Below are positions 6,786-46,300 of a stretch of DNA of 64,000 bases, piece by piece. Where the stretch lies: NCBI GenBank assembly GCA_963920765.1, contig OY987243.1:12276001-12340000 (forward strand), given 5' to 3'. The stretch's first letter is position 1. Every line of letters begins with the position of its first letter. This stretch comes from Ulota crispa. Lineage: Eukaryota > Streptophyta > Bryopsida > Orthotrichales > Orthotrichaceae. The notes under the pieces are model-generated. The model was not told the origin of the DNA, did no database searches, and saw only the letters and a list, made by a program, of their open reading frames with translations. Position numbers and translations under genes: made by a program.

Positions 6786-7286
6786 CCAAAACATGGATTT
6801 AAAGCCATATTAATTGGTATAAAAGAAAAGAAACAATTTGATTCTACCTTTTTAGGTCAAAATCCGTAAAAAGTCCCTAAAATGCAACATTGGATGGATG
6901 CGTTTGTCTAAGTTGTCCAATGTGTCTGCTTGCCTATCTTGTCCTACAACCAAATCTTGCCAAAAGTGACAACCATGGCTAGCGTGCCCAAATCTATAAG
7001 GGTTTTTATTTTTATCCTCAATATAAATTGGACAAAGCTTGGAATGATGGGATGTGGTTGAATTTGATAATTAGTTAATAACCATGACCTCCAATATCAG
7101 TAGCTAAATTGTAGGTGGGGTTCAAATAAGATATTGTGACTCTCTTCCAAGACATAGTGGGGCCTCTTGGAAATGAGCAAGCCCTCAATTTCAAATGCAC
7201 ATTTGGTATTTGGTTTTTGTAGCTTGCAATTACAAGGCTGGGTGTGGATGCTCTTAACCCCTAAAGTCCTATTTGATTAAGCTAAG

Positions 7287-7427
7287 AACACCATATTCAT
7301 TAAATTGGGAAAACAAGATTTCCAAGTTGTCTTCACCTTAAACGTGGAACTTGGTTTAAGTTGGTCAACTTAAACCTAGTTAATGCCCAAAATGTTCACA
7401 AATTCCCAATTTAATGAATATGGTGTT
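7287..7427. mobile_element. MITE, AACACCATATTC-ended family
   Basis: A short palindromic element starting AACACCATATTCATTAAATT and ending in the inverted form GAATATGGTGTT. It is almost the same as the one at 37,231-37,372. The flanks TAAG and TAAA suggest a degraded 4-bp target duplication. It is non-coding. Confidence 0.7.
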
Positions 7428-8158
7428 TAAAATTGTCACCAAATCTGCTCCAAAATTGCCATTTATAGTACAAGTGCCAAATTTTAGATTTTTTTTTACA
7501 TATGTAGCCGTGACATCTTTTACTACACTAGTACCAAAAGATTTTTAAGAAAAATTAGAAATTTTTGCCATCTAGATCATTAGATATTTGAGTTTGAATT
7601 GACAAAAAGCCATTTTTTATCCTTGCAAAAATCTAGGCAATTGTACTTCACAAGGTCATATTTGTGTGAATTTTTTCCAAAATGGTTGTGATTTTTTGGA
7701 TTTGTTCTTCAAAGCAAGTTGGGTACACACTTGAAAATTTTCAAATCATTTGAAATTGTACAACACATGGGAAAAAATAGTTTGTAAGAAAAAGTAGAGA
7801 ATGGTTTAAACCACAAAATTGTTAAGAACTTAATTATGGAAATGAAAAATTCCAATCCCAGTGGTTGTAATGTTGTAATAAACAATCCACATCCTTAGTT
7901 TTTTTTTTTTTTTCTAAAATATTGAAAATTGAGTAAAATAAAGGACTTCAAAGTTTATTTTAGAGGAGAGAATCCATAATTGCTTGCAAACAAAATCTCC
8001 TCAAAGCTTTCATCTCATTGATCAAACTAGAATGATTTAAAGCTTCCCATGTATGTATAGATCTAATGAATCAACTTTCAAAAATAATAATTTTAAAACA
8101 TAAATGTTAAAGAATTTTATTGTTTGCTTGACAAACAAAGAAAACTACATATCATGCA

Positions 8159-8533
8159 TGGTTGTCACATTGGACCACCTGCCTGCCCGTCTGCCTGAAG
8201 TGCCCAATTGAGGTCATGGTCTATCCGGTGAACCATCCAATGAAGTCAACTCATAGTTGATTTTAAAAAATGGTTTGAAATCATAAAACAAACTTACTTT
8301 GTACATGCTAGTGACACACTCATTGTTGCCAACATGAAGTCAAAACATGGATTCAAAGCCATACCACGTAATAAAAATGATTTTTTAAAATTTGATTCTT
8401 CCATTTTAGGTCAAAAACCCTAAAAATGCCCTTAAAAACATGAGTGGACGGACATGTCCGCCCATCCGGTCCAATTTGTCTATTTGTCTGTGCTGTTTGA
8501 TAGCCTCAATTTGCCCAAAGTAACAATGCTATT
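8159..8533. mobile_element. hAT-like non-autonomous element
   Basis: Flanked by a perfect 8-bp direct repeat ATCATGCA (8,151-8,158 and 8,534-8,541). The empty site can be seen in the related TTAA element at about 17,560-17,575, where the same surrounding sequence reads straight through. The ends contain the inverted motif TTGTCACATTGG versus CCAAAGTAACAA. The interior matches the repeats at 31,460-32,110 and 55,800-56,330. An 8-bp duplication is the hallmark of hAT transposons. Confidence 0.6.
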
Positions 8534-8717
8534 ATCATGCAATAACTTTTGAACCATGAAGTCAAGAGTTATGAAAATTGTTGGGCTGTAAAGCTACTCC
8601 TTGGACACATTAGAAGTAAAAATTAACTTTAAAGAAAAAGAATAAAACCTGTTGGTAGTGAGTTGCCCAAAATTGCTATATTGCCAAAAAATTGTTGTTC
8701 AAGGCTTTAAAGGTTAA

Positions 8718-8950
8718 AGTAGACATACCGCCCAATCTTGACCATGTGCCTAATGCCACCCATATGTATCCAAGGTGGTCATTTAAATCCTAAAATCTAG
8801 GTAAGTCATAGATACCTTATCTTCTATGTCACAAAAGATAAGTTATCTATGACTTACCTAAATTTTAGCTCAAATTTTAGAATTAAAATGACCATAGTGA
8901 GTACATACATGAGGCATTAGGTACATGGTTAGAATTGGATTAACCTACCT
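8718..8950. mobile_element. foldback MITE, ACATACC/GGTAGGT family
   Basis: Palindromic: the left part reads CCATGTGCCTAATGCC and the right part GGCATTAGGTACATGG, with an inner hairpin around AAGATAAGTTATCTATGACT. It is related to the element at 33,167-33,383. Non-coding. Confidence 0.55.
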
Positions 8951-8952
8951 TT

Positions 8953-9075
8953 GGGTATGTTCACACTTGCTATTAGGAGGGGTATTAGCAGTATAAATGC
9001 AACCTAAAGGTGTGTCCAAAAGCATCTAATATTCCTTTGCTACTACCACTCTTAATACAAAGTGTGAACATACCC
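8953..9075. mobile_element. MITE with GGGTATGTTCACACTT ends
   Basis: Short element with perfect terminal inverted repeats GGGTATGTTCACACTT and AAGTGTGAACATACCC. The homologous sites in the other units lack it. The target duplication is unclear because three insertions abut here. Superfamily not assigned. Confidence 0.6.
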
Positions 9076-9954
9076 TAAGTATTGTTGCTATGAAATACAT
9101 GGGATCTTGCCTTCAGTTGAGATTTCAAGATCTGGCCCTTACCTTACACTTTGAAATCTAGCATTGCATTGACCCGAGAGTTTGGGATGTAAGGTAACCT
9201 TACATGTACCCAAGAGTTTAAGGGTTTAGGGTACGTCAAGGTCTCAAAAAATTTAGGAAGAAAATTTGTAGGTTTAGCCGTTCAACAAGTTGTCATGAAA
9301 CGTAATTTTTGTGGAAAAAAATATTGTAGATTATCTATTTTATAAAGCATGGTGTGTTTTTCTCATGTTTAAGTGTCTCATGATATAATGACGTGGCATG
9401 CCAAATATTTTCTATTAACACCACAAATTCTAATAGAGAGGAGAGAAAAGAGAGGAAAAGGCACTCAAAGCATGAAACATCACAAAGAGAGAGGAAACGG
9501 CATCCAAAGTGAGGGTGAAAAGTCATTTGAAATGTGAAAACTCATTAATTTTTTTAAAAGTCATTTGGAATTGTGAAGAGTCAGCAAACTTTCTCAAATG
9601 TGAACTTATAACATTTCAATTATGCAAATATCATATGGACCTTGTGCAAAGCATGGGCAAGGCACACTCATAGGGTTCTTAACTTGGTAACTCCCTGTTA
9701 GCAATTATAAACTACCCTTAAAACTACTTAAATATGTTCTTAGACATGTCCTTGACAATCCCAAACCCCATCCTCCCAAACTAACTCCTAAACTTATATG
9801 TGACAAAATTTATTATGCAAGTGACATTCACTGCTCAACATTGGGTACTGGGTACAGTATAGGGAACACCTAAATGTAAAATGCGGCATTGGGGACCGCT
9901 CAATTATAGGGTGGGTTACCTTAGAGTTGAATGACTTGTAGAGCTGGAACCTGA
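9076..9954. other. upstream flank of protease copy 1
   Basis: No supported gene. The first part (9,095-9,230) is shared with the corresponding flank of units 2 and 3. The remainder contains AT-rich unique sequence. Short reverse-strand frames here (for example near 9,335-9,526) are low-complexity and not conserved in the other units. Confidence 0.4.
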
Positions 9955-10040
9955 AATTGAGACGTGGACTGAGGACGTAGAGTTGGCATGTGAATTAGGG
10001 ACGTCAATCAGGGATGTAGATTTGGGACGTGGGACAGAGT
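9955..10040. repeat. minisatellite remnant ahead of copy 1 (GGGACGT-type)
   Basis: Three to four degenerate units containing GGACGT and ATTTGGGACGT about 20-30 bases apart. Similar but longer arrays occupy the same place ahead of copies 2 (33,680-33,945) and 3 (56,955-58,018). This is the shortest of the three. Confidence 0.65.
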
Positions 10041-10375
10041 GTGAACCGCCTTCTCCCTCGCCTCCCAAGTCCCAACCTGCAAAGCCGCAGAATTGCACAA
10101 ACCCACGAGGAATCTGGGACACATCACGATCGTCGACGTCGCAAATCAGAAACGGTCTGTTTAACCGAAGCAATGCATGTCCATCATCCCTCCACAATGC
10201 CTGCAACATCCCCACGGCCCTCGCTACAATGCCACGAGGGTCACGGACGATGCTGGTTCTCGCATCTGACATGTAAACGAAAGTAAATGAAATGTGGAGC
10301 ATCGGATGCTCCTCCATGACTATTGTGAGACAAGGGTGGACTCCATAGCCTGCTGTGTGAGTTAGTTCGTTAGTG
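10041..10375 (+). promoter_or_regulatory. GC-richer block upstream of exon 1 of copy 1 (probable promoter or 5' UTR)
   Basis: Conserved in all three units immediately before the start codon and clearly richer in G and C than its surroundings, with a CT-rich CCTTCTCCCTCGCCTCCC stretch. The likely role is core promoter plus 5' untranslated leader, inferred from position only. It lacks a segment of about 105 bp that copies 2 and 3 carry just before the start codon (about 34,208-34,320 and 58,312-58,420). A reverse-strand open frame also crosses it (9,916-10,437). Confidence 0.45.
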
Positions 10376-13300
10376 ATGAGGCGAGGAGGCCATGGCTTCA
10401 AATTCCAAGCACCATGGCGGCGGCATGACGATCCCACTCAGGTGGGTCACAAGACCTAACAATGCTGATGCTTTGTGGAATTTGGAATTGTAGTCGATTT
10501 GAAAGAAGCTCTCAACAGTCTATGCCCAAATCCAAAGCAATAATGAGAGTATTTTGGGAGTCTCTAATCTTTTGACATCTTCTTTACTTACTTCTAACTG
10601 GTCGGAGTTCAAGAATTGTGACAAAAGAGGCGTCGATCTTATCGATCAGTGCAATAGCTCTTCGGATGAGTAGTCAAAAAGCTGCAGCATGTTGTTGTTG
10701 CACACCATTTTGGAGGACTTTTGATTGAGTCTAAATTATTTTTCATCCAAATCCTCTCATGTTTTGATCTTCTTACATGCTGGCAGTTCAAGAGGAAGAA
10801 GTGTGGACTCTCTTCTGGACGTTTTGATGAATGTTCATGTATCCCAAGGTTTTGCAGTTCCTTTATGGCATTCCGGGTACTCGGGGTAGGCTGCGTCTTG
10901 TGGGTCTTGGATGGCAATACCGTTCAATATCTATGAACCTGAGATAACGAAGTTGTGGATTTGAGCATTGTTTCTGTAATAAAACCTAAGTGGTAAGCAG
11001 ATATTAATTGGAGAATGTTCAATCTTTGAACATTGGAATTAGGGGTAGCATTTAGGAAAGAGAAGAATCTATGCATGGCTTTGAGCTCTTAAAACCTTTG
11101 CGTTGTTTTCAGCCTGTACGACTTTGAGCTTTTATGGCTTTTACATGCAATATGCAAGTGCTCTTTTTGGATTTATTTGCCTAAGTCGAGCAGACCGGCC
11201 TTGTCAGGGGAAGTTTGCTTGTTTTGAGTTGAACTGATGTGTGCAGATGTGGATGTGATATCCTAACCCTAGAATGAGAGTTCAGAAGTTTTTTTATTGA
11301 CTTTGTGGCTGGCTATGTTATTGTTTGTGTGCAGAGTTCCATTCCTTCTGAACAGGTGGAAGGGCTTGGGTTCAGAAGGCTGGTGGCGCTTGCTGCGTTG
11401 ACCATAGCCATCTCAGTTGTCATGCTTCAATGGCGACGTCATGAGCCCACCAAGCATGACCTTGGGGCAAGCAAGCCAGGTTTTCTGTTTCCCTTGTATG
11501 GCTACTCGTACAGGCAGTTTCGGAATGCGAGCACAGACTCGGAAGGGACGCTGTGGCGTGGACACAGAGGAGCAGCACACCACAGGGCCTTACAGCAAAT
11601 TGACAACGACCACTCTAGTCCATTATATGAACTCAGGTTAGTAAGCATTGTCTTTACCCCCCTTGAGATGTAACTTGAATTTCCCGCTATCTGATTTGTC
11701 ATAATCCTTCTTTCCATGTGGATCTCTTTGCACTGGTATTCAAAGTCAGAAATTTTCTATGACCGTGCTCCGGCATAGGTTGTATCATGAGAAAACAAAT
11801 TTTGCTGGAGTAGTAAGTTTTGAGAGCAAAGTTAATGCTTTGAATGCTATGCCGTCATAATCATGCATGCATGTTTGGGGTTCCTCTCTCTTAGAGATCT
11901 TGCTTGCCGCAAAATACCTGCAAGTTTATGGCGACCACCCGCACCTCACTTTCGATAGGTGAAGGAAAGTGGACAAGAAAACTAGGTCCTTCAAACGGAG
12001 TTATCAAGATGTTTTATCAAGTGACTAGGAGAAAATCTTTGCAGGCAATTATGTGGTTGAAGCATTGCAGATGTCAAGTTGTGACCTTGCAGCTTGGTTT
12101 GGTCTGTTTGTGTATTTTTTTGCATGGGGTTTTCAATGGGAGAGTGAGGGTGGAAAAACCTAGTTTTTTCCAGTTTTTCTATGGAGTTAGATAAGCAACG
12201 GGTTATCCTGGATACAATCTGGGTTTGCGTGATACACAGTCTGTTGTCCCAACATTGCATCCCTGAAGAAGAGCAGGAGAAGTTTGTTCAGGATGAGAGT
12301 TCTGTGGTGTTTAGCATATTTTTCAGCTGCATTTTGATGGATGGTGGTGATGTTTTTTCTTGTGCAAATGCGGCACAGGCAGGGCTTTTATATCACAATG
12401 AAACTGGGTATTCCTCCCAAAGAGTTTGACTTTGTTATTGACACTGGAAGTCGGAACACGTGGGTACATTGCAAAAGACCTCACCATGTTTCAAGATTCC
12501 GTGATTTGGTCAGTGCCTTTTTCTCGTTACTTGTATTTGCAATTCTTTTAGCGATATAAAGTGATATCAGACAATACTAGTAAGTTTCCACTTACAATCT
12601 GGTGTCATTGAAGTTGTTTGCATTGATTGACTGCGTCCCTTCCAAAAAAGATGGTGCAAAAGGCAATGATTCAAGGGATCTTATCTCAATCATCTTTTGC
12701 TCAAGAATTATAAAAACAAATATGAAACGTGGAGGATTCTGTAATTTCTGGCTCATAGGCAGATTGATACTAGCAGGAGAATTTAACCCCTGAAGGGCCC
12801 TTGGGCTCTAGAGCTACGGTACCAAATACGATCGCAACCAATATTCAGAAGTTTGAATAAGTTGGAAGTTAAGTGTTACAATCATATATATTGAAGGGTT
12901 GTATGATGGTGGGTGCACAAATTTCTTGGAAAGCCCTCAAAACAGCTCAAATATGTATGTGCATACAACCGTGCATAGGGTGGATGCATGGTCAGTTGAC
13001 CCAAAAATGGCGGATAAAACCTCATAAAAAGTCCAAAACTTTGAGATTTTTACATGTATGGATCATAAAGTGTTTGTTTTTCATTATACAAATACGTGTG
13101 TTATGCAAAAAAGACCAAGCCTATGTAGTCATGAGGAAGGCTTTTGCAAAAGAAAAAAGAAAAATCTAAAAAATGTTAAAATCATTAAGATATTGTTGCC
13201 TAAACATTTAGCCCATAGCTATTATTGTACACCACTTGTTTAAAATTTTAGCACGTTTTTGAAATACTTAAAAGATGTTAAATCACATATGTAGTCCCTA

Positions 13301-16300
13301 TGTACGCATTATAACTAATTTGATACATTATGTCTATCATTTTCATAGGATGCTATGAATGTGACATTCCAAATATATGCATTGAAAGTCCCTTATTTTT
13401 TATATTATCAATTTTAACAAAAATTAATTACACATTTTGTTTTATGAACAAGTATAAAATACATCCATTAATTTAAGATGCTTTCAAGCTCTTTCTTCTA
13501 TTAGAATAAACCATGCAATCAAAACATGTTCTTGAAAATTGAATGAAACACGCATTTTGGGACAACCAACCATGCATCTGCCCCATACGGCTGCAAAGGG
13601 CTTTTGAGCAGTTCAAGGGTTAATAACATGGAAGGGGGCTTCAAAGCTCAAAGATAATCGGTTTTGTTGTGAAGGCAAGTTTGCTTGCAAAATTATTGAT
13701 TTCAACTTCTTTTCTCAAGCAAAAATCTTGTTGTTTTTTTTACCCATCGGAGGGTTTGAAAGGTTGTAGAAAAACGCAGAGTTTTTGAAGGCAGTTCTGC
13801 AGGAGAAATCAAAGGTCTTCTGCACATATCACAAGTCTTCTTGTGAGAAATCAAAATGGTTTTATGCACCTATGGAAAGTGCACAAAAGTGCTACACATG
13901 GGCTCTCTTACGTGAGAAATTAAGGAAGCCATTGTGAAACATTAAATCTCATGAAATCTCTTTCTCTTACAAAAAGGGTTGGAGGGGAAAGTAATCCAGT
14001 TGCGAAAAGTTCGATGACTGGAAACCTCCCAATTGAGAGGTGCGACGGAAGTGCAAGCACAAGCTCTTTTGCATGTGATCATCCACATGTTGATAAGACA
14101 AGTTTCGTAAAGATGTATCAACGTAATTATGTCTTATGATAGCATGGTAATATAGAAGCTCTTATGGAATGAGATATAGAAGCTCTTAAATGAAAAGAGT
14201 ATTTCACCAGGTTAAAAGAAAGTCTTTTAATAGGTACTCTAGGGGTGCTTCTTAAAGTCAAGAAAATTGTGATGATGGCTTTGATTGGGAGAGGAATTTC
14301 TCTCAATAGTACAGCAAGGATGTTGCAAAGAAATCAGGTGACAGGTTTGAATTCCTGGCTCCCATTTTTTTCACTTTCTTTCCTGTTTTGGAATATGAAT
14401 GAATGTAGGGACCCAATGGACTGTATAAGGCTAAGCGCGGATCAACCATGAAGTGCTTAGGAAACACGGCTGATTTATGCATTGAGCTTCAACATCAAAA
14501 CCAGGAGAAGTGCAGTCGTCGTAAACATTATGACTGCTTGTTCCGCTTCGATTATGCGGACTTGACAATCGTTACGGGAGTTTTTGTTATAAACAGCATG
14601 ACTTTGCCCTTGCAGGACAAGAGTGAAGTGGATGTCCACACCTATTTTGGGTACTTTATTTCATCCTTTCTTTCTCATGTGTTCTTCCTTGATTGCATTC
14701 TGATGCGTCATAGATCGTGCAAGGTGCAGTGATGCTTGGATAAGGTCAATTTTTGTAAGAGAAACGTTTGGATAGTAAAGTCATGTTCTTCTTTTTCATG
14801 TTTTGGGCCTAGTTACCACCTAAAATTGATCCGTAGCTTGAAACTAACCTCTCTGATCAATAAGCTCAAAATATCAGACTTTTGTACGAACACTCAAAGT
14901 AGGGTCAAATTTGTTTTTTAATTGGGTTTAGGTGTTCATTTATTTTTTGGCCATCCAAAATGATATATTCCACTTTATGAGTTTCTTAAGAAATTTGAAT
15001 TTCTTGTAGTAAGAGCATAAAAGTGGCTACATGCCTCATTAATTTCTTGATCACCTAATGCTTAAAGAGTTGGGAAAATTTGGAAGGAGGAATTGCTTTG
15101 TTGCAATTGTCATTACACTGAGGAAATTTTATAGAGGTGATTATTGTAGTAATAAATTTCAATTACAACAACCATACGGTGTAAACCTAAAACATCATGG
15201 GGAGTTGCAAGAATGACCTCTCTGTTTTGTCTCAAACACCCTTAGTACTAGTAATACTAATAGAACTATCGAGCTTTTGGAATAATTTTTAAAAATAAAA
15301 TAAAATATGGACAATTTGTAAAGCACTTAAAATAGCATACTTGTGAAAATTCAGACCTAGAAATATAATATTCTAAAAGTTATGCGCAAAACAAAATCAC
15401 CTTAAAAAGCTTTCTTTCTTGCTTTTTAGAAAATAGTAAAATAATTCAAAAAAATAAAATAAAAATTGGCCATTTGAGAACCCATTAAACACATTCACAT
15501 GGTACAATTGCTTTGCTGAGGAATATCTTTGTATTTTGCCAATGAAGGGAGATAGGATGCCCACTTTGAGACAATGTAGATGCCATGGAATTTATAATTT
15601 TGCAAAACCCTTATACAAATGCGTGTAAGCATGCTCCATAAACAACACCTTTGATTTATAGCCCTAGAAAAGTTTTTTTGGACCCAAAATAGTACTAAAA
15701 ACCCCCAAAATGGCCAAGGTAGACACCCATTTGGGGGCTACTTAAAAATAGCAAAATAATTTTAAAAAACACCAAAAAATCCTTGAACGTCAATAACTTG
15801 CATGTTTACATTTCTCTAAAAGGACAAGTCAATATGACTTCTTTTGCAAAAGTTACAAGCAAAAAACAAGCTACACAAGGTGAGGGGGACATAATGTAGT
15901 ACAAGTCATTCTTGCAATCACCCTCATGTGGAGTACCTGCCAAAGTAGCTTTTTTTAAAGTAGAAAAACTAAAATGGAAGTTATTACACAGACATGGGGA
16001 GTTGATTGCTAATTTTACCCATTGATTGAGCCATTGTGAAGTGCGTTTGAACAATTTGTGGGTAATGTCTTCCTTTGATCCTTGTGTTTCTATTAGTTTT
16101 TAAGACTGCCCAAGTTGACACCTAAAGCACATATGGTCTTGTATCTCATTCAAGAATCTTTCATTCTACGTTTGTTTTTGAGGAATGCAAGCTCTTCAAT
16201 ATGAGCACAAACATTTTGTTTTTCTAATCTCGTCTCAAGCATTTATACAAGAAATACTTGATTGAATATCCAAAATGCCCAAAGTGGGCTTCATGGTCCC

Positions 16301-19300
16301 TTAGAAGGTAAATGGAGTGTTTGTGTATTGTCAATACTTGAGTATGGTCAACGTCATTTCCTTGTCCGAGGCATTTACCATATCTAAGCATCATAGTAGC
16401 AAAATCATGGCGGAATTTAAAGTCATCAAGCAAGGGTACATTGATGATACAAGAGCTTCAATGATGGCCTTGAGATCTTACTTCATATGAAGCAATCAAT
16501 TTTCATAACCTAGTTTAGTCCTTTAGTGGTATTGGTAAGATCCCTTAGAAAACCCTAATTGTCAAGGATATACTAATGCAAGAGTTGCAAGATGTCCTTA
16601 TAAAGATCTTACTTCATATGAAGCAACAAGTCTTCAATGACTTGGTTGAGTACTTTAGTGGTACTAGTAAGACTCCTTGCGGAACCCTACCAACAACCTT
16701 ATTAGTGTTTAGGAGGAGTTGCTTATCAACACAAAGTAAGTAGGTTGAAATGGCCAAAATCAAGGTTGGAATTTGAAATTATTGGAATTTCAATTATAGT
16801 GCATTTCTATATAAATGTAAGAAGATATTAGGTATATGTTTGAGAAAAATTGGGTTAAATTGAGAAATGCCAAACTTGGGCAATGAAGTAGAGATTTTTT
16901 GTCCAAATGGTGGACGTTATTCTCTAGAGGTTGTGCATGTTGTAATTTGCATCTGTGATGAGTGACAATCTTAACCCCTAGAAGCCCTTTCTTCTTACCT
17001 AGACAAATTGGATTTTGGGAGACAAATTGGATTTTGGGCAGCCCATTACAAATGGAATATGTGTTTTTTCTTTGAAATTTTATATATAACCCATGTACCC
17101 GAGGAGTAGTTTTAAGGCCCAACAAAGTTTTAGAACTTTGACTACATGGTTCAAAAGTTATTGCATGATATATAGTTATTTTTGAACTTTGGGCAGCTTG
17201 GGCCCTGGGTAGCTCAGAAAACTTCTTTGAAAATCATATTATTTGTTTTAATTTATTGTTGACTTTGGTTCATTAGACTTATGTATATGTGAGAAGCTTT
17301 GATCTATTTGATTTCAATTAATGAAATGAAAGTTATGAGAAGTTTTAGTTTGTGGGTAAGTGTGGTTTTGAGAGATTCCATACCTACCCACAAACTAAAA
17401 CTCCTCATAATTTTCATTTCATTAATAAAAATTGAATGATTCAAAGCTTCCCGCATAAACATAAGTCTAAAGAACCAATTTCAAAAATATATAAAAAATA
17501 ATGTAATTTTTAAAGAAGTTTTCTGAGCTGCCCAAGTTACATGGAGGTAAAAAAAAGAACTACATATCATGCAATAATTGTTAAACCATATAGTCAAAAG
17601 TTATAAAACTTTGTTGGGCCTTAAAGCTACTCCTTGGGCACATATTATATAAAATTTTCAAAGAAAGAAAACAAAAACTCCATTTGTAATGATCTCCCCA
17701 AAATCCAAATTTTCCCCATAGGGATAATGGGCTTTTAGGGATTAATCTTTAAACAACTTTTCAAGTTTTGGTGAGACAACCCAATAATCACTAAAAAAAA
17801 CAAAGTACCAAGTATAGAGTTGAGGCATGCATGGCATGACCAATCACAATAAAGAAATAGCCACGTGAGGAATCAATTAGAGACTTGGGACAAGAATTAA
17901 ATGGTTCATCAATCCTCTCATGTGCACATTGCAAACAAACTTGCTGAACAATCACTATAAAGAAATAGCCACATGAGGAATCAATTAGAGACTTGGGACA
18001 AGAATTAAGTAGTTCTTCAATCCTCTCTTGTGCACATTGCAAACAAACTTGCTGAAAAACTTTGTTGTTGCAAATCAATACAAAGAATGACCTATATTGA
18101 GTTGAATTGAAGGTCCCCATCCAAGGTTACCACATCCAAGTTGTCCTTTTGTACAAATAATTTCTTTGTAAAACACCAAGCCCCTTGGGTTGGGTGCGTA
18201 GTGTAAAGGTAAATTTCAAAAGTTGTGGTTTCTTATAATCAAATAAGAATAGCTAACAATGCTAATCTCAAAGGTTACGGCATAGAAAATGGCAAGTGCT
18301 TACATACACTTGATTAAAATTACAATGTATGGGGTAGTTGCAAAAGAGTTGTAATATTCATCAAGTTGGGAAAAATTTGACTTCAAGACTTTTGGATTTT
18401 ACATTCTTCAAGGAGTCTTTAGTGAATATTCTTTTGAGAACATAAAACTCAAAAGTCCCAAAATCAAGTTATTCCCCAAATTAATAAAAAGCTTTTAAAA
18501 AGTTGGTTTTGGTATACACCTTGGAATTTGTAGAGATCAAAAATAGGAAGAGAGAAGATTCAAGAACGCTTTTGTTTTTTATAAGATAAAATTTTAGGGG
18601 TCAAATGATGAAACTTGTATTAAGTTGTGATTGTTTCAATGCATCCTACAAGAGCACATTTGCAATGTTTAAGGTCATTCTATTTGTGGGTGAATTCAAC
18701 TCATATTTCTATTTGGATGAATGCAAGGATTTATGAGAATGATCGACAAAGGACATGGTTATCATCATTGCAAACATGAATTGTTGTGGATGAATAACAC
18801 ATCATATATAGACACAAATTGGACGATGCTATTTGGTGTGCATAAATTGGTGAGCCATGAGTGGGGATTCAAGATTTTGAGAGCACAAACAGATTCTCAA
18901 CTCAAAATCAACAAAATTGCCTTAAAAGAAAAAAAGTTTTCAAGAGATTGTAGTTTAAGATACTTAATTATAGGGCCCTATGTACACAGTTGTAGCCTAT
19001 AGGTAGAATTTATCATTTTGACCAAAAATCCTTGCTTGCTGCTTATGGCTCATGGTTTTCCGCTCATGAAATAGCATTCTCCAATACAAATCATGATACA
19101 AAATTGTGGTCCACAAACTTAGAGTATATGTGCAGTTAGAATGCAAATACAATTGTTCCTTTTGAATCCACCACTAGAAAACAAAATCCAAATCAACACT
19201 ACTTTGATGATTTGTGCATTTAGATTTGGACATTTTGAACAATGTTGTGTTGATTAAGACCACTTTATTTGGGCCATATTCTCTACTAATGTTGCATCTT

Positions 19301-33007: not shown

Positions 33008-33166
33008 TACAACCAAATCTTGCCTAAAGTGACAACCATAGCTAGTGTGCCCAAATCTATTAGGGTTTTTGTTTTAATCTTCATTATAAGTTGAACAAAG
33101 CTTGCAATGATGGAATGTGGTCGAGTTTGATAATTAGTCACCAATTATGACCTCCAACAACACTAT

Positions 33167-33383
33167 GGTAGGTACACCCATTATTGACCATTAAACCATG
33201 TGCCACTCATATGAACATAGGGCGTACACTTCGATTCTCAAATCTAGGCACGTTATAGATGTATTATTTTTTGTGCACAAAAATAGGACATCTATGACAT
33301 GCCTAGATTTGAGAATCAAATTGTACGACTTGTGTACGTATGAGCAACATTAGGTTCATTGGTTGGAAATGGGTGTACCTACC
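33167..33383. mobile_element. foldback MITE, GGTAGGTACACCC-ended
   Basis: Inverted ends GGTAGGTACACCCATT and AATGGGTGTACCTACC, with an inner hairpin (TTCTCAAATCTAGGCA and its inverse). Related to 8,718-8,950. The other units lack it here. Flanks TAT and TTA are compatible with a 2-3 bp TA-centred target. Confidence 0.65.
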
Positions 33384-33679
33384 TTAGCCATATTGCAGGT
33401 GAGGATCTGAGATAAGATATTGAACTCTCCTCCAAAACACAGTGGGGCCTCTTGAAAATGAGCAAGTCCTCAATCATGAATGCACACTTTGACATTTGAT
33501 TCTTGTAACTTGCGGTTGCAGGGCTCCGTGTGGATGCTCTCAACGTTCTTGTCATGAAATTTTGGAATCTTGCCTTCAACTGGGGTATGAGGATTTGGCC
33601 CTTACCTCACACTTTGGGATCTAGCATTGCATTGATGAGAGTTTGGGATGTGTGGTTGAATTAGAACTTGTAGAGTTGC

Positions 33680-33945
33680 AACGTGAAATTGAGACGTGCA
33701 CTGACGAAGTAGAGGTTGCATGTAAATTTGGGACGTAGACTTAAGATGTTGATTTCGGACGTAACCTCGAGACGTGGATTTGGGACATAGACTCAAAACG
33801 TGGATTTTGGACGAAGACTCGAGACGTGCATCTGGGAGACTGGGACGTACACTCGGGATGTGGATTAGTGATGTGAACTCGAGACGTGCGTTTCGGACGT
33901 CGACTCGAGATGTGGACTAGAGACGTAGACGAGACGTGGGACAGA
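33680..33945. repeat. minisatellite ahead of copy 2 (GACGT-type)
   Basis: About ten degenerate units of roughly 26 bp, such as TTGGGACGTAGACTTAAGA and GGACGTCGACTCGAGATGTG. The position corresponds to 9,955-10,040 and 56,955-58,018. More diverged between units than the array of copy 3. Confidence 0.75.
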
Positions 33946-34367
33946 GTGTGTGAACCGCCTCCTCCCTCGCCTCCCATGCACAAACCACGAGGAATCTGGG
34001 ACACATTACGATAACTTTAGAGTCGACGTCGCAAACCAGAGACGGTCTGTTTAACCGAAGCAATGCATGTCCATCAACACTCCACAATGCCTGCAACATC
34101 CCCATGGCTGTCGCTACAATGCCACGAAGGTCACGGACGATGCTGGTTCTCGCATCTGACGAGTAAAGCAAAGCAAATGAAAGGTGGAGCATCGGATGCA
34201 CATCCATAACTATTGCGTCGTCTGAATTTCCATTCAGATTTCTCCAATACCCCAATTTTAAGAGGCTCGAGGTCATTCATTGCTCCTGGCTTGACAAAGA
34301 AACAAAAGAAGGAAGCATGAGACAAGGGTGGACTCCATAGCCTGCTGTGTTGGTTAGTTCGTTAGTG
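33946..34367 (+). promoter_or_regulatory. GC-richer block upstream of exon 1 of copy 2 (probable promoter or 5' UTR)
   Basis: Homologous to the blocks before copies 1 and 3. Relative to them it has lost short pieces in the first part (after CCTCCCATGCAC). Like copy 3, and unlike copy 1, it carries an extra segment of about 105 bp near 34,210-34,318. Confidence 0.45.
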
Positions 34368-37300
34368 ATGAGGCGAGGAGGCCATGGTTTCAAATTCCAA
34401 GCACCATGGCGGCGGCATGACGATCCCACTCAGGTAGGTCATAAGGCCTAACAATGCAGAAGCTTTGTGGAATTTGGCATTGTAGTCCATTTGAAAGAAG
34501 CTCTCAACAGTCTATGCTCAAATCCAAAGCAATAATGAGAGTACTTTGAGAGTCTCTAGTCTTTTGACATCTTCTTTACTTACTTCTAACTGGTCGGAGT
34601 TCAAGAACTGTGACAAAAGAGGCGTCGATCTTATCAATCACTGCAATAAATCTTCGGATGAGTAATCAAAAAGCTGCATGTTGCCGTTGCACACCATTCT
34701 CGAGAGAGGTTGATTGAGTCTAAATGAATTTTCATCCAAATCCTCTCATGTTTTGATCTTCTTACATGCTGGCAGTTGAAGAGGAAGAATTTTGCACTCT
34801 CTTCTGGATGTTTTGAAGAATGTTTATGTATCCCGAGGTTTTGCAGTTCCTTTTATGGGGCATTCCGGGTACTCAGGGTATGGTGCGTCTTGTGGATCAT
34901 GGATGGTAGTGCCGTTCAATATCTTTGAATCTGAGAGAACGGAGTTGTGGTTTAGAGCAATGTTTCTGTATTAAACCTAAGTGGTAAACAGATACTAATT
35001 CGAGAATGTTCAATCTTTTCAACATTGGGATTAGGGTTAGCGCTTAGGAAAAGAATAATCTATTGTATGGCTTTGAGCTCACAAATCCTTTGCGTTGTTT
35101 TCAGCCTGTACGACTTTGAGCTTTTATGGCTTTTACATGCAATATGCAAGTGTTGTTTTTGGATTTGTTTACCTAAGTTGAGCAGACCTGCCTTGGCGGG
35201 GGAAGTTTGCTTGTTTTGAGCTGAACGGATGTGTACAGATGTGGATGTGATACCCTAACCCTAGAATGAGAGTCTAGAAGTTTTCTATTGACTTTGTTTA
35301 AGGCTAGCTAAGTTGTTGTGTGCAGACTTCCATTCCTTCTGAACAGGTGGAAGGGCTTGGGTTCAGAAGGCTGGTGGCGCTTGCTGCGTTGACCATAGCC
35401 ATCTCAGTTGTCATGCTTCAATGGCAACGTCATGAGCCCACCAAGCATGACCTTGGGGCAAGCAAGCCAGGTTTTCTGTTTCCCTTGTATGGCTACTCGT
35501 ACAGACAGTTTTGGAACGCCAGCATAGACTCGGAAGGGACGCTGTGGCGTGGACACAGAGGAGCAGCTCACCACAGGGCCCTACAGCAAATTGACGAGGA
35601 CTCTGGTCCATTTTTTGAACTAAGGTTAATAAGCATGGTTTCTACCCCCGTTGAGGTGTAACTTGAATTTCCCTCTATCTGAATTTTTTTATTGCTTCTA
35701 TCCTTTGGATGTCGATGCAAAATGGGATTTCAAAGTCAAAATTTTCTATTACTAGGTTTTATCATGATAAAACAAATTTTGCTATAGACGTAAACTTTCA
35801 GAGCAAAGATAATGCTTTGAATGCTATGCCGTCATAATCATGCATGCGTGTTTGAAGTTCCTCACTCTTAGAGATCTTGCTTGCTGCAAAACACTTGCAA
35901 TGGCCACCACCGGCACCTCACTTTCGAAAGGTGAAGAAAAGTGGACAAGAAAACGAGGTCCTTCAAACCGAGTTATCAAGCTATTTTACCAAGTGACTTG
36001 AAGAAAATCTTCGCAGGCAATCATGTGGTTGCAGCATTGGAGACATCACGTTGTGACCTTGCAATTTGGTTTTGTCTGTTTGTTCGCTTTTTTGCATGGG
36101 GTATTCAGTGGGAGAGTGAGGGAGCAACAACCTAGTTTTTTCCAGATTTTCTACCCAGTTAGATAAGCAACCGGTTATCTTGGATACATTCTGAGTTCAA
36201 GTGATTCACGATGCCTGTTGTCTTAACTTTGAATCCCCCTAAGAAGAGCAGGAGAAATTTGTTCATGATGAGAGTTTTGTGGTGTTCAGCATTGCCATGT
36301 TATTTTTCAGCGGCATTTTGATGGATGGTGGTGTTATTTTTTTCCTTATGCAAATGTGCCACAGGAAAGGCTTTTATATTACAATGAAACTGGGTATTCC
36401 TCCCAAAGAGTTTAACTTCCGCATTGACACTGGAAGTCGGAGCACGTGGGTAATTTGCAAAATACCTCGCCGTGTTTCAAGCTTCCGTGTTCTGGTAAGT
36501 GCCTTTGTCTCGCTGTTTCTACTTGCAATTCTGTTTATCTATGCAAAGTGATAACAAAGGTTACTCAGTGAGTTTCCACTTACCATCTGGTGTCATTGAA
36601 GTTGTATGGATTGGTTGTCTACGTAACTTCCAAAAAAGATGGTGCAAAAATCAAGGATTCAAGGGAACACATCTCAATTTTCTTTTGCTCAAGAAGTATA
36701 AAAACAAATTTGAAACATGGAGGATTCTGTAGTTCCTATGGAAGGGGGCTTCAAAGAGCAAAGAGAATTGGTTTTGTTGTGAAGACAATTTGCTTGCAAA
36801 ATCATTGATTTTTTGCAAGAGAAAACCAACTTCTTTTCTCAAGCAAAAATCTTGTTGTTTTTCTTTTCACATCGGAGGATTTGAAAGCTTGTAGAAAAAC
36901 GCGCATTTTTCTGAAGGTGTTTCTGCAGGAGAAAACAAAGGTCGTCTGCACGTATCAGAAGTCTTCTTGTGAGAAATCAAAATGGTTTTATGCACCGAGC
37001 AAAGTGCACAAACGTGTTACGCATGGATTCTCTTACGTGAGAAAATAAGGAAGCTATGGTGAAACATCAAACGTCATGAAATCTCTTTCTCTTTGCAAAA
37101 GGGGTTGGAGGGGAAAGTTGATTCAATTGCAAAAAGTTCAATGACTGGAAACCTGCCAATTGAGAGGTGCTACGCAAGTGCAAGCATATTCTCTTTTGCA
37201 TGTGATCACCTACATGTTAATAAGACAAGTAACACCATATTCATTAAATTGGGAAACCCAGATTCCCAAGTTGTACTTCACTTTAAGCCTGGAACTCGGT

Positions 37301-40300
37301 TTAAGTTGGTCAACTTAAACCTTGTTATTGGCCAAAATGTTCACAAATTCCCAATTTAACGAATATGGTGTTAAGTTCGGTAAAGATGTAACAACGTATG
37401 TTTTATGATAGCATGGGGTTGTAGAAGCTATTATACAATGGTGATATAGAAGCTCTTATAGAAAGAGATTGTCACCAAGTTAAGAGAAAGTTCTTCAAAA
37501 GATACTACAGGGGTGCTTCTAAACGTGAAGAAAAGTGTGATGATGGCAATAATTGGGAGAGGGATTACTCTCAATAGTACAGCAAGGATGTTGCATAGAA
37601 ATCAAGGGACAGAAGTCTAAAATCCTGTCTCCAGTTTTTTTCACTTTCTTTCTTGTATTGGAAATATGAATGAATGCAGGGACCCAATGGAATGTATGAG
37701 GCTAAGCGCGGATCAACCATGAAGTGCTTAGGAGACACGGCTGATTTATGCGCTGAGCTTCAAGACCAGAGCAAGGAAAAGTGCATTCGCCTTAATCAGT
37801 ATGACTGCTTGTTCCGCTTCCAGTATGCGGACTTGACAACCAGTATGGGAGTTTTTGTTACAGGCATCATGACTTTGCCCTTGCAGGACAAGAGTGAAGT
37901 GGATGTCCACGCCTATTTTGGGTACTTTATTTCATCCTTTCTTTCTCATTGTGTTGTTTCTTTCTCATGTAATGTTCCTTGATTGCATTCTGCTGCATTA
38001 TAGATTGTGCAAGGTACAGTGATGCTTGGATATGGTCAACCTTTGTAAGAGAAACAATTGGATAACAAAGTCCTATTCTTTTTTTGTGTGTTTTGGGCCT
38101 AGTTAACACCTAAAACTGATCCGTGCTTAGGTGCTCAAATGGCTTGAAACTAACCTCTCTCATTAAAATGATCAACATTAAGCTCAAAATTTTAGACTTT
38201 TGTAAGAACACTCAATGTAGGGTCGACAAATTTGTAGTTGCGATTTTACTTTAGGTGTACATTTTTTATTGGCCATCCAAAATGATATCTTCCACTTTAT
38301 GAGTTCCTTGAGCAATTTGAAGTTCTTGTGGAGCATGAAGGTGGCTACATGCCTCATAAATTTCACAATTACGCAATGCTTAAAACATAAAAAAAACAAT
38401 TTGAAAGAGAGGAATTGTTTTGTTGAAATTGTTATTACATTGAGGAAATTTCAGAGAAGTGATCATTGTAGTAATAAATTTCAATATCAAAAACCATATG
38501 GTGTAAACCTAAAACATCTTGTGGAGTACTTGCCAAAGTAATTTTTTTATAAAACAAGCACTAAAATGAAAATTATTACATAGACATGGGTAGTTGATTG
38601 CCAATCTTGCCCATTGATTGAGCCATTGTAAAGCGCGTTTGAACAATTTGTGGGCAATGCCCTCCTTTGATCCTTGAGTTTCTATTTGTTTTTAAGAATG
38701 CCCAAGTTGACACCTAAAGCACATAATTATGGTAATGTATCTCATTCAAGAATCTTTCATTCCACATTTGTTTACAAAGAATGCAAGTTCTTCAATATGA
38801 GCACAAACATCTTTTTTTCCCTAATCTTGTCTCAAGCATTTACATAAGAAATGCTTGTTTGAATATCCAAAATGTTCAAAGTGGGCTTCATGGTCATTTA
38901 CAAGTTAAATGGAGTGTTTGTGTACAATTAGTGCTTGAGTATGATCAAGGCCTTTTTCTTGTCTAAGGCATTTACCTTGTCTAAGCATCACTATAGCATA
39001 ATCATGGCAAACTTCAAAGCCATCAAGCAAAGATACATTGATGATACAAGAGCTTCAAAGATGGCCTTGAGATCTTACTTCATATGAAGCAATTGATTTT
39101 CACAACCTAGTTTAGTTCTTTAGTGGTATTGGTAAGATCCCTCAGACACCCCTAACTATTAAGGATACACTAATGATGCAAGAGTTGCAAGATGACCTTA
39201 TAAAGATCTTACTTCATATGAAGCAACAAGTCTTCAATGACTTGATTGAGTACTTTAGTGGTACCGGTAAGATTCCTTGGAGAACCCTATCGACAACCTT
39301 ATTAGGGTTTAGGAAGAGTTGGTTATCAACACAAAGTAAGCTTGTTGAAATGGCAAAAAAATCTAAATTAAGATTTGAATTTAATAGATAAATGATTGAT
39401 AAAATATAACAAAAGTTTGAAGTCTAGTACATTATTATACAAATGAACAAAGATATTTGGTGCATGCTTGAGAATAATTGGTTGAAAAAGGAAAATGCCA
39501 AAACTTAGGCAACAAAGCAAAATGTTTCCTTCCAAATGGTGGACATAATTCTCTAAAAGGTTGTGCATGCTGCAATTTGCATTGGTGAAGATAGACAACC
39601 TTAATCCATAAATAGCATTTTAGGTTTTGGTGAGAGAACTCTTATCATAGAAAAAAAAAGAAAAAAAAGGTAGTAAGTATAGAGATGAGGCATGCATGGC
39701 ATGACCAATCACAATAAATAAATAGCCACATGAGGAATCTATTGGAGTCTTGGGACAAGAATTAAATCACTGCAAGAAAATAGTGTCCAAACTCCAAAGT
39801 GACATGTCCAAATTGACTAAACTTGTCTGAATTGACAAAATAATGTCCAAATTGACACATTTGAATCTACAAAAAATGACCAAATTGATAGCGTTTTCTT
39901 GTAGCAAATGATTCTTCAATCCTCTCATGTGCACATTGCAATCAGACATGAAAAACTTTGTTGTTGCAAATAAGTACAAAGAATGACATGTATTGAGTTA
40001 AATTGAAGGACCCCATCCAAGGTTACCACAACCAAGTCGTCTTCTTGCACAAAGAATTTCTTTGTGAACACTAAGCCCCTTGGATTGGGTGTGGATTTTA
40101 AAGGTTAATCTCAAAGGTTTTGGTCTCTTATAATCAAAAAAGAATAGCTAACAATGCTATCTCAAAGGTTGTGGCATAGACAATGGCAAGTGCTTCCATG
40201 CACTTAATTAGAATTAGAATGTACGGTGTAATTGCAAAAAAATTGTAATATTCATCAATTTGGGGAAAAGACTTGACTTTAGGACTTTCAGATTTTGCAT

Positions 40301-43300
40301 TCTTTAAGGAATTTTTTGTGAATAAACATTTAAGGACGTCAAACTCAAGTGTCCTGAAATCAAGTTTCCTCCAAATTAATAAAAAGCTTTTAAAAGGTTA
40401 GTTTTGGTATACACCTTGGAATTTGTAGAGATCACAAATAGGAAGGGAGAAGATTCAAGAACAATTTTATCTTGTATAAGATAAAATTTTAGGGGTCAAA
40501 TGGTGAAAATAGTATGATGTTGTGATTGTTTCAATGCATCCACCAAGAGCGCATCTGCAATGTTAAAGGTCATTCTATTTAGGCTTAAATTAAATTTGTA
40601 TGGCTATATTCTGGATGAGTGTGAGGTTTTATGAGAATGATAAAAAGGCAAAGAATATATTCATCATTATTGCAAATATTAAATACTCTCCATGGATATA
40701 AATCATCGTGTGTAGATACAAATTGCATGATGCTATTTGGTGAGCGTAAAATGGTGAGCCATGAGTGGGGATTCAAGATCCTATGAGCACAAATGGGTTC
40801 TCAACTCAAAATCAACAAAATGATCATAAAAGAAAAAAGGTTTTCAAGAGATGGTAGTTTAAAATGCATACTTATAAAGCCCCACGTACACGGTTATATG
40901 TGGAATTTATCATTTTGACCAAAAATCCCTGCTCTTTGCTCATGGCTCAAAGATTCCCGCTCATGAAACATCATTCTCCAATACAAATCATGATACAAAA
41001 CTGTGTTCCACAAACTTAGAGTATATGTGCAGCTAGAATGCAAATCAATTACATGATGCAAATACAATTGTTCCTTTTGAATCCACCACTAGGAAACAAA
41101 ATCCAAATCAATACTACTTTGATGATTTGTGCATTTAGATTTGGACGTTTTGAACAACATTGTGTTGATTAACCCCTAAAGGCCCAAGCCTTTTTTTTTG
41201 TGAAAGTCATTGAAAACTGCCACTTTTAGGGGAATGAATAGAAAAGTAGGAAACAAGGTTTTTTTTTGGAAATCCAACTATAGGGTCTTGTTCTAGACTA
41301 TGGGAAGTACTTGTGGGAAAAAATCAGCTTATGATAGATAGTGAGGAGTGAGATATTGACATTTGAAGTGAAAAAAAACGTTTTTTTCCTTACTGCCCAA
41401 ATATTTCAGAAGCTTTTGACCACTTTTATATCAAAAAAATTGCTCTACGCAAAGTTGAGGTGGATTTTTTCCTTATAGAAGATCAAGTTAGGAATGTGTG
41501 GGAGAATTCTCAAATGAATTGGAGGTGTGAATCATACTTTGTAAAATGCTGCAATGCCAAAAGGTCATGGAATTTTCATATACATGCACTAGGTGAAATT
41601 GGAAGCTTTATGTAACTTACACTCATAAATTTAAATCACATTGATCAAAACTGAAAACAAGGGGTTCTTAGCCTACTACAACTTCAAGATAAAACTAACC
41701 AAAAAATAAATACTCAAAGTGCTCAATAAACTAAAGCACCAAATTTTATAAGGGGAAAAATGAATGGAGGTTTGGGAGTCCCCCAAGATGGGCACCTTCC
41801 ACTCCACTCCCCTTTGCCCAAGTGTTCACACCTTGTGCCCACAAGGGCTGACCTTCTTTGGAGTCAACACCCCATTACAAAGCCGAGGCCTTGTCCAAAC
41901 TACCCCTTCTTGCCTAGTTTTAGAAAATTCTTGATAACTTCTTCATCAAATGTTGAAATGAAGAAAAAATTAGATACCTGCGTAAGTCTTGGAATTTCCC
42001 ACCTTCTGTAAAAGTTTCAATCCGTAAAAGTTTCAAATAATCACACATACTAGTTTAGCTGTAGGTACATGCCCAAAATCCATTTGTCTCCCAAGAGGAT
42101 AATTGGGTCTTTAGGGGTTAAGACATGTATGTGTTGATTATGACCACTATATTTGGATCATATTTTCAATAAATGATGCATGTTTGTAGTTTGTTTATTT
42201 TTTTGTTTCTTTTTTTGCTAGATGTGCAACGCAAAGGCATGACCCCCCTGAACCTGTTCCAACTATTTCTGATGGTGTCATTGGTTTGGGTAATTGCAAA
42301 TCAACTCTTGCATACCAGTGGTTTGAAAACAATCTTATCAGCCAAAATGTGATTAGTTTTTGTATAGCAAAAACCATGGATCCTGTAATAGAAAGAGCCA
42401 AAATAGGTTATGTTGCTGTTGGGATAGACTTCAATGAGAAGTTTGAAGAAGGCAACTCGGCTTATCTGGCTTGGGCACCACTAGTTCAACATTATAGAAA
42501 GTGAGAGTCTTGCCTTAATAACATTTAAACACAATTCTTGCTTTTAACTTATAGTTAGTTTTTATTTTTCTATGAAGTATAGTGCATGATACTTATATTC
42601 CACTATATTGTCCCAAGAAGAAATCCAAATGTGCAGCACATGTGTCCACTAGTTCAAATGCAATTCCACCAAAATGAAGATTAGAATGTAAAATTTGTCC
42701 TGGTGGTCTTGGATTTTTGAACTATTTTATTTTTTGAAAAAGCAATTGACTAGCCACTCAACATTTACACTAGAAGAAATACATGCCATAAACAATTGTC
42801 ACAAATTTTCATGACTATGTCACAATAATTGCCTTACAACCGCATAAACAACTGCACAACAATTGCACAACTACAATCTAGTCGTGTAATTATTGTACAG
42901 TTGTTATGCAGTTGTTTGTGCAATTGTAAGGTAGTTATTGTGACCTAGTCATGAAAATTTGTAGCAATCGTTTATGGCAGGTTTTTCTTCTAGTGAATTA
43001 GAAGTTGTTGGTTAGAAGGATCATGCACACCATACAAGTTTTGAATTTAACTTATGTCAACAACATATTTAACTAAATATGGGGTGCTCACTTAATTCTA
43101 AATATTGAATGTACAAACAAAGAGAAATCTCTTGATGTTGGGTTGCTTAGGTCACTTGATGTTTTGCAAAGATTTTTCACTATTTTGAATACAATGTGTG
43201 CAATTGTTTTGGAAAATCTCTCAGTGTTTGCATATGGGTGATTTTTTTCAACTTTGTATAGTCCAAAGTAAGTTAAATATGTCATATTTTCTATGTCTCC

Positions 43301-46300
43301 AAACATTTTGGACGTTTTCCAATACTTTGCACTTTGCTTTTTTTCCAAAGTTTTGTATATCTTCTCAATTAGGTGTATTTCTAAGCATTTTGCAAATTTC
43401 TTTGGATGTCTTGCAGGTACTTCAAAGTTTTTTGTAAATGGAAGCAATTCTTGAGTTGTTGCTTATGGATACATGATAGTCTATATTTTACTAACATGGC
43501 ATATTGGCATATATATAATATTTATGCAATTATGGACTTGCTATGTTTGTGACTGTTTAGAAAGATTCCCAAATGTTTCAGTTGGTTGTATATATCTCTT
43601 GATGTTTTACATGCATCTCATGACTGCATATATCATTACCAAAAAACAAATTTCAAATAAGCTATGTTTTAATTATTTGGATGTCTTGATTTGGACATTT
43701 TGAACAAACCTGTAAGGATTTAAACAAGTTTGTGTTAATTAGGACCACTTGTTTTGGGCCTTGTTTTCATGAGATATACTTCCTTGATGTTTGGCTTGTA
43801 TCTCTCAACATTTTGCAAACCAATAAAAGTTAAAGTGTAATTTTCAATTGTTGTTTACAAACTTTGGATAATCCTAAGGTGGCTAAGGAAATTGATACAT
43901 GTACCACCCCTTCTTGACTATTCTACTAGTCACATCCTACTATATATGGTCAATATTTACAATATTAAAATTGGTGTGGACCACAAGAAAAACATCACTA
44001 ATTTGAAAATATAACTTGACATAAAAGTTGCAATTTTAATGTTGTTTTTTAGCTTTAGATTCTGCTTATAGTATAAATTAAAAATAAATAAATTATGTTT
44101 AGTTTAATTCATATTATTTTAAATTGGTACTATGAATATGATTTAAACCTAAAAAATAAATTTAAAATCGCATCTTCTATGACAAGTTGTATTTTCAAAT
44201 TAGTGATGTGTTTCTTTTGGTCCACACCTATTTAATATTATAAATATTGACCATATATAGTAGGGTGTGGTAGTATAATCAAGAAGGGGTGGTACATGCA
44301 TCAATTCCTAATTACCAAATATGTTTGTAATGAGTAACTATTTTTCTAAGAGACCTTGTTTTGTTGTGGGTACAGTGCACTTTGCGCTTATCCAATAAAC
44401 CTATTATGTATCACATTTCTAGGCAATATTGTTAGGCCTCAAGCAAATAGAGTTCCAATGTTGGTTGACACTGGCAGTGAAAGGACTTATCTAGAAGGTG
44501 AATTGTATAATCCTCTATTAAAAATGGTGCGTACCATGCATATTTTGAATCAAACTCTTGAGCATTTCTAAATGATAATTACATGTTGTTTTTTTTTTTT
44601 TCAATATATTCATGTAATTGTTTTAATTATTTTTTTCAATTCAGTGTATGGAGGTTGCAACTTTTTATAGTATAAGATGTTTTCTATGGAGTTTATGTGG
44701 TGAGGAGTACATTCCAACTCAAATTCTAGTAAAAAACGTGGGGAGCAGCTTGCATTATATGCCTCTACCAAAGGTTATGTTGAAGTGGGTGAAAGCCATG
44801 AATTTAATCCAAGTATACACCGATTATGTTGGACGCCTCCTTCAAGGTCCATCAAAAATGATGAGGCATGTATTTTCTATACCAATATTACCATGCTAAT
44901 TTTATGCATACACTCTTTTATCTATTAGTATATCTTGCACACTCTAGGCCCTGGCTCTCTTAATTTCAATGTTTGTTCAAGTGACTTTTCACCCTCCTTT
45001 TTCTTATCAATTTTTTTCATTCCTCTCCTCCTTGCTTTGACACTACCCGCACTAGAAAACCAAGCTCAAATAAAGTGATTTTAACCCCTAAAGCCTTGGG
45101 GCCTTTATTTTGTCAAAACTCAAAAGACACTCAAACTGCCATTTCTATTGTAAAGAGTAAAAAAGTTTGAAAATTGGTCTTTTTGCATATCCAATAGTAG
45201 GGCCTTGTACTATAATAATATAAGAATGTGGAAAAAAAATTCTAAAACTTTGATTGCACAGATTGCAAGATATTTGCGTTTAAATTGTAAAAACTAAACT
45301 TTTTTGCACCGTACATGACTAGATTATTTGACTTTGAGCTTTTTTAACTTAAAATTTTTGCACCACAAAGTTTGAAGTTTTTATTTTTTATGGTGGAAAA
45401 TTGAGTTGAGGATCTTTGGAAAAAAATCAAAACAAAAAAAACTTAATTTTCATTCTTAATAATAACATTAGGTAGAAGAAAGTATGAGATTGAACAAAAA
45501 CTTAAATTGTTAATAACCTTGCATTGGAATTGAAACGCAATAATTCCAATGAAAAAATTGTTCTAGAAAGCAAACTTCACCCTTTCCAATAATGTTTTTT
45601 GAAGAAATGTTAAACTTGCTTTCAAAAATGTAGTTTATAAGTTATGTTTTCAAGAAGATGCTTGAATTGCCCAAAAAACAAGATTGTCCATGACTTTCTC
45701 ATAGCTAGTCCAAATGGAATGAATCAAAGCTTCAAATGTAAACAAAACTATAAACTATGAGAAAAAAGACTAAAAAAAATTCAAGTTTTTGTAAAAAAAA
45801 AAATTGCTCCTCAATCTCTCCAAATTTGTGTTTATCTAGGCAAAACTTTTGCTCGTATGCATAGATCAAAATAAAAATTATATTCCTCAAAAGTTAATGT
45901 GTTTTTCTATCTTCAAAAAAAGTTTCAAAAAATCAAGACAAATATTGAGGCCATAGGTACTTGCTCAAAATCCCATTTGTCCCTCAAGGGGACAACATGG
46001 CTTTAGGGGTAACTATCACAAACATATCCTAATCAACACAATTTTGTTTGAAATATCCAAATCAAGACATCCTAATCAATTAAGTGATGATGAATTTGGT
46101 CTCTTTTTCTCATAGTGTAAATACCAAACTTTGAGTGACAAGCAACTACTCAATGCTTGGCACCCAATGCTTTCTAATAGAGAATTTTGAACTTCTATTG
46201 TTGATAAAGAGTTTTGATAATTGCTTGACAAAAAGAGACACTTGAGGCTTTGTACACTAGATGCTTTGGTGTGTCCAAAAATAGGTTTGTAACTCATTTT

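Follow-up and report, generated by a model that had tools for sequence, protein, structure and literature searches.

Five insertions in a 64,000-nucleotide stretch of moss DNA (the window, by which we mean the whole stretch analysed) raise the question of whether piggyBac transposons, which are best known from animals and have been studied mostly in animals, fungi and protists, have also populated the genome of a land plant. A first-pass annotation of the window had placed the insertions at TTAA, with TTAA on both sides and one copy decayed, had given them inverted ends of the type CCCCTRAA, and had proposed one family of possible piggyBac type. We find that all five, E1–E5, are non-coding, non-autonomous copies, and we consider it close to certain that they are of MITE type and belong to a piggyBac population of the moss nuclear genome that is large, old and diverse. 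The five elements and the copies of their target sites are the following.

7254..7257, strand., left target site copy of E1, TTAA
7258..8713, strand., E1, non-autonomous piggyBac-type element, 1456 bp
8714..8717, strand., right target site copy of E1, TTAA
12783..12786, strand., left target site copy of E2, TTAA
12787..13619, strand., E2, 833 bp, ends CCCCTGAAGGGCCC / rc CCCTTGAACTGC
13620..13623, strand., right target site copy of E2, TTAA
16971..16974, strand., left target site copy of E3, TTAA
16975..17741, strand., E3, 767 bp, near-palindromic MITE with an interior related to E1
17742..17745, strand., right target site copy of E3, TTAA
41169..41172, strand., left target site copy of E4, TTAA
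41173..42117, strand., E4, 945 bp, ends CCCCTAAAGGCCCAAG / rc CCCCTAAAGACCCAAT, 14/16 matching
42118..42121, strand., right target site copy of E4, TTAA
45081..45084, strand., left target site copy of E5, TTAA
45085..46009, strand., E5, 925 bp, CCCCTAAAG at both ends
46010..46013, strand., right target site copy of E5, decayed, TAAC

The positions and the target sites proposed earlier were borne out, with TTAA immediately 5′ of the left end in all five elements and immediately 3′ of the right end in four of the five, E5 having TAAC instead. The left end reads CCCCTAAAG in E1, E4 and E5, CCCCTGAAG in E2 and CCCCTAGAAG in E3, and the right end, read inward, is CCTTTAAAG in E1, CCCTTGAAC in E2, TCCCTAAAAG in E3 and again CCCCTAAAG in E4 and E5. 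The inverted ends of the CCCCTRAA type therefore stand for E4 and E5 and are imperfect in E1–E3, where the right ends deviate. By their coordinates the five elements cover 4,926 bp, or 7.7% of the window. The motif CCCCTRAAG, with at most one mismatch, is found at 32 sites in the 64-kb window, as compared with a mean of 16.6 and a largest count of 28 in 100 shuffles. For the pattern WWWWCCCCTAAAG the window holds 4 sites against the 4.4 per 64 kb expected from the genome, so the window is typical in this respect.

Pairwise comparison of the five elements revealed blocks in common between E1 and E3, related terminal regions in E4 and E5, and short matches of E3 to both E4 and E5; E2 matched itself alone and gave no match to the other four. 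Judged by the sequence of their interiors, the five belong to more than one family. When E3 is aligned with its own reverse complement, 79% of the 714 aligned positions agree. Elsewhere in the genome E1 has 39 scored relatives with 80–84% identity over E1 positions about 173–901, most of them with a second match starting at about E1 1276; this comparison, like that of L009 with L018 given below, covered the plus strand only and misses matches to '-' loci. About 370 bp inside E1 (window about 8159–8532) are absent from these relatives. We also observed that E1 1084–1269, within the segment that the relatives lack, resembles window 6787–6972, shortly upstream of E1, at 69%.

The window contains a tandem array with units of about 24 kb, lying near 10–20 kb, 34–44 kb and 58–64 kb and with blocks that are 60–95% identical, and this array is the source of paralogous empty sites. 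The flanks of each element (300 or 120 bp) were joined and compared with the tandem paralogues in the window, which gave informative comparisons for three of the five elements. A single TTAA is present in the paralogue of the E3 site at about 39.5–39.7 kb and in that of the E4 site at about 19.1–19.4 kb, the latter with a 20-nt gap directly beside it. The E5 site in the paralogue at about 21.4–21.6 kb is TTTAAA, which is compatible with TTAA and from which the decayed right copy of E5 could be derived. In the paralogue of E2 the element is absent, but the insertion site falls within a gap, and for E1 we found no clean empty site in the window, since the paralogue aligns with the left flank as far as TTA and then diverges. 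Thus the empty sites that had been reported in paralogues could be confirmed for E3 and E4, with a compatible site for E5, but not for E1 and E2. Two open reading frames of the tandem array, at 11278 and 9916, gave no Pfam match. Further features of the window are a long nested inverted repeat at 72–3819, whose arms reach 465 nt and are 84–90% complementary; an open frame at 5064–5912 with zf-RVT (PF13966), a retrotransposon remnant; and an array at 56897–58074 with copies spaced 26 bases, which adjoins the third tandem unit and has one distant copy at 33651.

The end sequences were then searched for in the assembly that contains the window (274.8 Mb, 157 contigs). CCCCTAAAGGNCC has 13,028 genome sites, whereas its control, the reversed pattern, has 9. 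Of the 13,028 sites, 10,998 (84%) lie directly after TTAA, a figure that is zero for the reversed control; the flank is not part of the CCCCTAAAGGNCC query and is hence not presupposed by it. For WWWWCCCCTAAAG there are 18,979 sites (326 reversed) with TTAA at 92 of the 100 sites listed, and for the wider pattern WWWWCCCYTNANNGNCC 32,996 sites (123 reversed) with TTAA at 93 of the 100 listed; these two patterns overlap, so that their counts are not additive. Among the sites listed, the end variants CCCCTAAAGGACC, CCCCTAAATGCCC, CCCTTAAACGACC, CCCCTAAGCGCCC and CCCCTGAGCGCCC are found. On contig C1 below 720 kb, 8 of the 24 listed plus-strand TTAA-CCCCTAAAGGNCC sites have a listed minus-strand partner within 1 kb, and these pairs are 827–963 bp apart with both TTAA counted in. 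A fold-back MITE of about 725 bp was noticed on C3 at about 13128829–13129554 (within L039), upstream of the L009 transposase element described below; it is near-perfect, being 96% self-complementary, and its ends are TTAACCCCTAAAGG / GGGATTAA.

E1 and E2, which have weak right ends and for which clean empty sites were not found, might be composite or unrelated repeats that start at TTAACCCC by coincidence. We regard this as improbable, given that the E1 relatives L002, L005 and L008 begin at TTAACCCCTAAAG and that L002 and L005 finish at GGGTTAA, that the left end of E2 fits the abundant WWWWCCCYTNANNGNCC-type pattern, and that TTAA flanks E2 at either end while its paralogue lacks the element.

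The TTAA alone does not fix the superfamily. Kolobok and Sola3 also duplicate TTAA, and the TWA of PIF/Harbinger is contained in it. The five could in principle be MITEs of another TTAA-duplicating superfamily, or of PIF/Harbinger (TTA/TAA), with the piggyBac genes of the genome as unrelated neighbours. PIF/Harbinger with a 3-bp TWA duplication is ruled out by the conservation of the four-base TTAA, and the full TTAA before 84% of the CCCCTAAAGGNCC sites speaks against the wider proposal as well.

In a profile search, the piggyBac transposase domain PF13843 gave 120 matches in the moss genome, a few genes being counted twice, exon by exon, with a best E-value of 1.3e-73, and no match in the 14 control genomes. 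The matches are distributed over contigs C1–C11, and stops are present in most of them. Some transposase pairs, with the same score and facing opposite ways on a single contig, resemble segmental duplications. With the L044 frame (476 aa) as query, structure 6x67, which we take to be piggyBac, was matched at 4e-20 and piggyBat (9c0f) at 6e-17, and aligned VDE / DN / GV..DQ motifs are common to the moss transposase and both structures. Simple patterns, placed at what we assume to be the positions of the piggyBac catalytic triad, were searched for in 35 contexts; the motifs of all three aspartates are present in 10 of them, and the single motifs in 18, 24 and 23. L044 has N at the third position. 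When the open frames of L044, L047 and L048 were scanned against Pfam at E 0.001, PF13843 was the one domain reported, and the C-terminal cysteine-rich zinc domain was not among the matches of these frames.

L047 (C1:1177600-1185000) has two open exons, 3050–3541 and 3812–4738, which carry all three catalytic motifs and are separated by a plausible GT-AG intron, and no TTAA-flanked end pair was found within about 3 kb on either side. With the L047 protein as query, copies outside the list of 120 PF13843 matches are recovered. Its relatives are many, at 58–73% identity and with stops in most, for which reason we rejected L047 as a single-copy host gene; at least two long relatives are without stops (C8:8688505-8689278 and C5:11629480-11630220). 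Domestication or host retention of L047 is possible.

The presence of PF13843 could also be explained by contamination, with the repeats real but the piggyBac DNA derived from an associated animal or fungus, and the association of piggyBac with animals is what makes this worth considering. We find it hardly credible. The matches lie on C1–C11, the ends number tens of thousands in the genome, E1–E5 lie within a tandem array whose paralogous sites are without them, and a moss LEAFY gene is present in the same genome. The DNA-binding exon of the latter matched chain 4bhk ('Floricaula/Leafy homolog 1'), presumably LEAFY of the moss Physcomitrium patens, with two differences in 96 residues (E 1e-65); the next-best chains were at 2e-44 and weaker, and the D and C residues seen in the exon are, we assume, typical of moss LEAFY. 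The host, earlier given as a land plant, can on this basis be narrowed to a moss, and we take the piggyBac genes to belong to its genome.

An initial search up to 1.5 kb from 30 transposase matches gave only four right-end-like sites, and longer flanks were needed. In 14 long contexts, oriented by genome coordinates, we scored as an end pair any two TTAA-flanked ends that agree at 12 or more of 18 bases. Such pairs bracket the transposase in 8 of the 14, whereas 40 rounds of dinucleotide shuffles averaged 0.075 and never exceeded 1. The 14 are a non-random sample: L009, L011, L012, L014, L018, L025, L031 and L033 had been given longer flanks because they showed a right end beforehand, and 6 of these 8 have pairs, and L019 and L044–L048 had been picked for open frames, of which 2 of 6 (L046 and L048) have pairs. 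No pair reached the threshold in L018, L044, L019, L025, L045 and L047; L018 has a pair with TTCA as the left flank, the best pair of L044 matches at 11 of 18, and a left end of L025 was looked for within 5 kb and not found. The transposase-bearing relatives are 5.0–8.0 kb in size between CCYT-type terminal inverted repeats, and the 8.0 kb pair of L011 may include a nested insertion. Five of them are given here.

C5:10867270-10873007, L012 element, 5738 bp, ends CCCCTAAATGCCTAA
L033 element, 5516 bp, ends CCCCAAAGTGACA
L046 element, 6988 bp, ends CCCCTGAGCGCC
L014 element, 5094 bp, ends CCCTTGACCGCC
L009 element, 5019 bp, ends CCCCTCATCGCCAA

L009 on C3 and L018 on C10 are copies of 5.0 kb with 90% identity, and the limits of their homology are these ends. 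L012 and its relative L022 have the right border in common.

Among E1–E5, only E4 could be tied to a particular transposase lineage. Its positions 1–443 match L025, 88–512 match L026, 132–412 match L038 and 274–513 match L034, the matches to the last two stopping where the available sequence stops; L011 matches E4 in shorter pieces. In L025, L026, L038 and L034 the matching region has one and the same orientation and follows the DDE domain at a similar distance, about 1.2–1.7 kb, and in L025, L026 and L011 a TTTAGGGG|TTAA end is found where the start of E4 lies or would lie. Since E4 thus matches the 3′ region of a transposase lineage that has an end at the E4 start, it is most likely, as far as homology can tell, an internally deleted derivative of the L025-type lineage. 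Nesting of MITEs near transposase copies is common, and complete E4-like MITEs adjoin L031 and L033, but for the lineage of E4 nesting is disfavoured by the similar position of the matches in four separate copies. A query of 1,501 bases from the 3′ side of L025 had 39 scored relatives, of which 28 begin within 1,145–1,184 and reach the query end; the query ends about 200 bases short of the L025 end, so that the comparison covers the relatives up to that point. Short elements in which the terminal part is retained would give this pattern.

An origin of E1–E5 in another superfamily, to which the closeness of MITEs to transposase copies might seem to lend weight, is very unlikely in light of these results, namely the PF13843 domains inside elements with TTAA and this type of end, and the E4 homology at a similar distance from the DDE domain in four copies. 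The first-pass annotation had named TTAA flanks of further copies and a transposase in the same genome as the points on which its piggyBac proposal should turn, and both came out in its favour. The TTAA flanks, the CCYT ends, PF13843 and the sequence match between E4 and one transposase lineage all support the assignment to piggyBac.

We suggest that a piggyBac transposase would recognise the ends, excise the element and reinsert it at TTAA, with the cut-and-paste chemistry and seamless excision described as a feature of the superfamily in the accessible text of PMC7351741. MITEs such as E4 would be born by internal deletion of transposase-bearing elements with the recognised ends kept, as the homology supports in the case of E4, and would have been amplified and mobilised in trans by piggyBac transposase acting on the CCYT ends. 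Most transposase copies are by now broken. As the copies compared are about 80–90% identical, that is, with differences of 10% or more, and as most transposases carry stops, the wave looks old from its sequences, and recent movement finds no support in the copies compared.

The superfamily itself is already known, and what is new is the host, the scale and the diversity. The moss elements have in common with the piggyBac superfamily (6x67, 9c0f) the PF13843 DDE domain, its VDE / DN / GV..DQ motifs, the TTAA target and CCYT-type ends. They differ from piggyBac itself, which is 2472 bp long, in that they are 5–8 kb, with many end variants and with short copies in very large number. The piggyBac-related MITEs of animals, as described in the accessible portions of reports on coral (PMC2872659) and on Daphnia Pokey mPok (PMC4912750), are likewise short, non-coding and of the same superfamily; the moss set differs from these in its host and in that some members are near-palindromic. 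The earlier remark on the rarity of piggyBac reports from land plants is fair, but plant repeats and MITEs that bear the piggyBac label do appear in print. In the text available for each, 1,230 PiggyBac repeat hits totalling 122 kb are given for Ceratopteris (PMC6890710), PiggyBac is counted among seven angiosperm MITE superfamilies (PMC10004981) and is listed in a review of plant transposable elements (PMC10794571), and an animal study states that piggyBac has been isolated from plants too (PMC10813416). The first two of these, in the same text, share the label with our elements and give labels or repeat totals, whereas the moss data tie transposase, ends, target site and empty sites together. 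For the term, the accessible text of the Niphotrichum moss genome paper has only 'piggybacking' (PMC10619864). We found no description of piggyBac elements in mosses in the openly accessible papers searched, and existing repeat libraries or papers may hold a moss entry.

We tentatively propose a broader reading, which could well be correct but which we would not yet call probable: that there has been a long-lived piggyBac radiation in mosses, or at least in this lineage, in which transposase lineages and ends diversified side by side, that it is among the main DNA-transposon loads of a land-plant genome, and that some intact intron-bearing transposase genes, e.g. C1:1180709-1182337, may be host-retained. 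In conclusion, with its 120 transposase matches and its TTAA-flanked ends in the tens of thousands, this moss offers a plant system for the co-diversification of ends and transposases. It lets the origin of MITEs be studied, and also bryophyte ancestry versus horizontal transfer, and it suggests that unclassified MITEs of mosses may be piggyBac.
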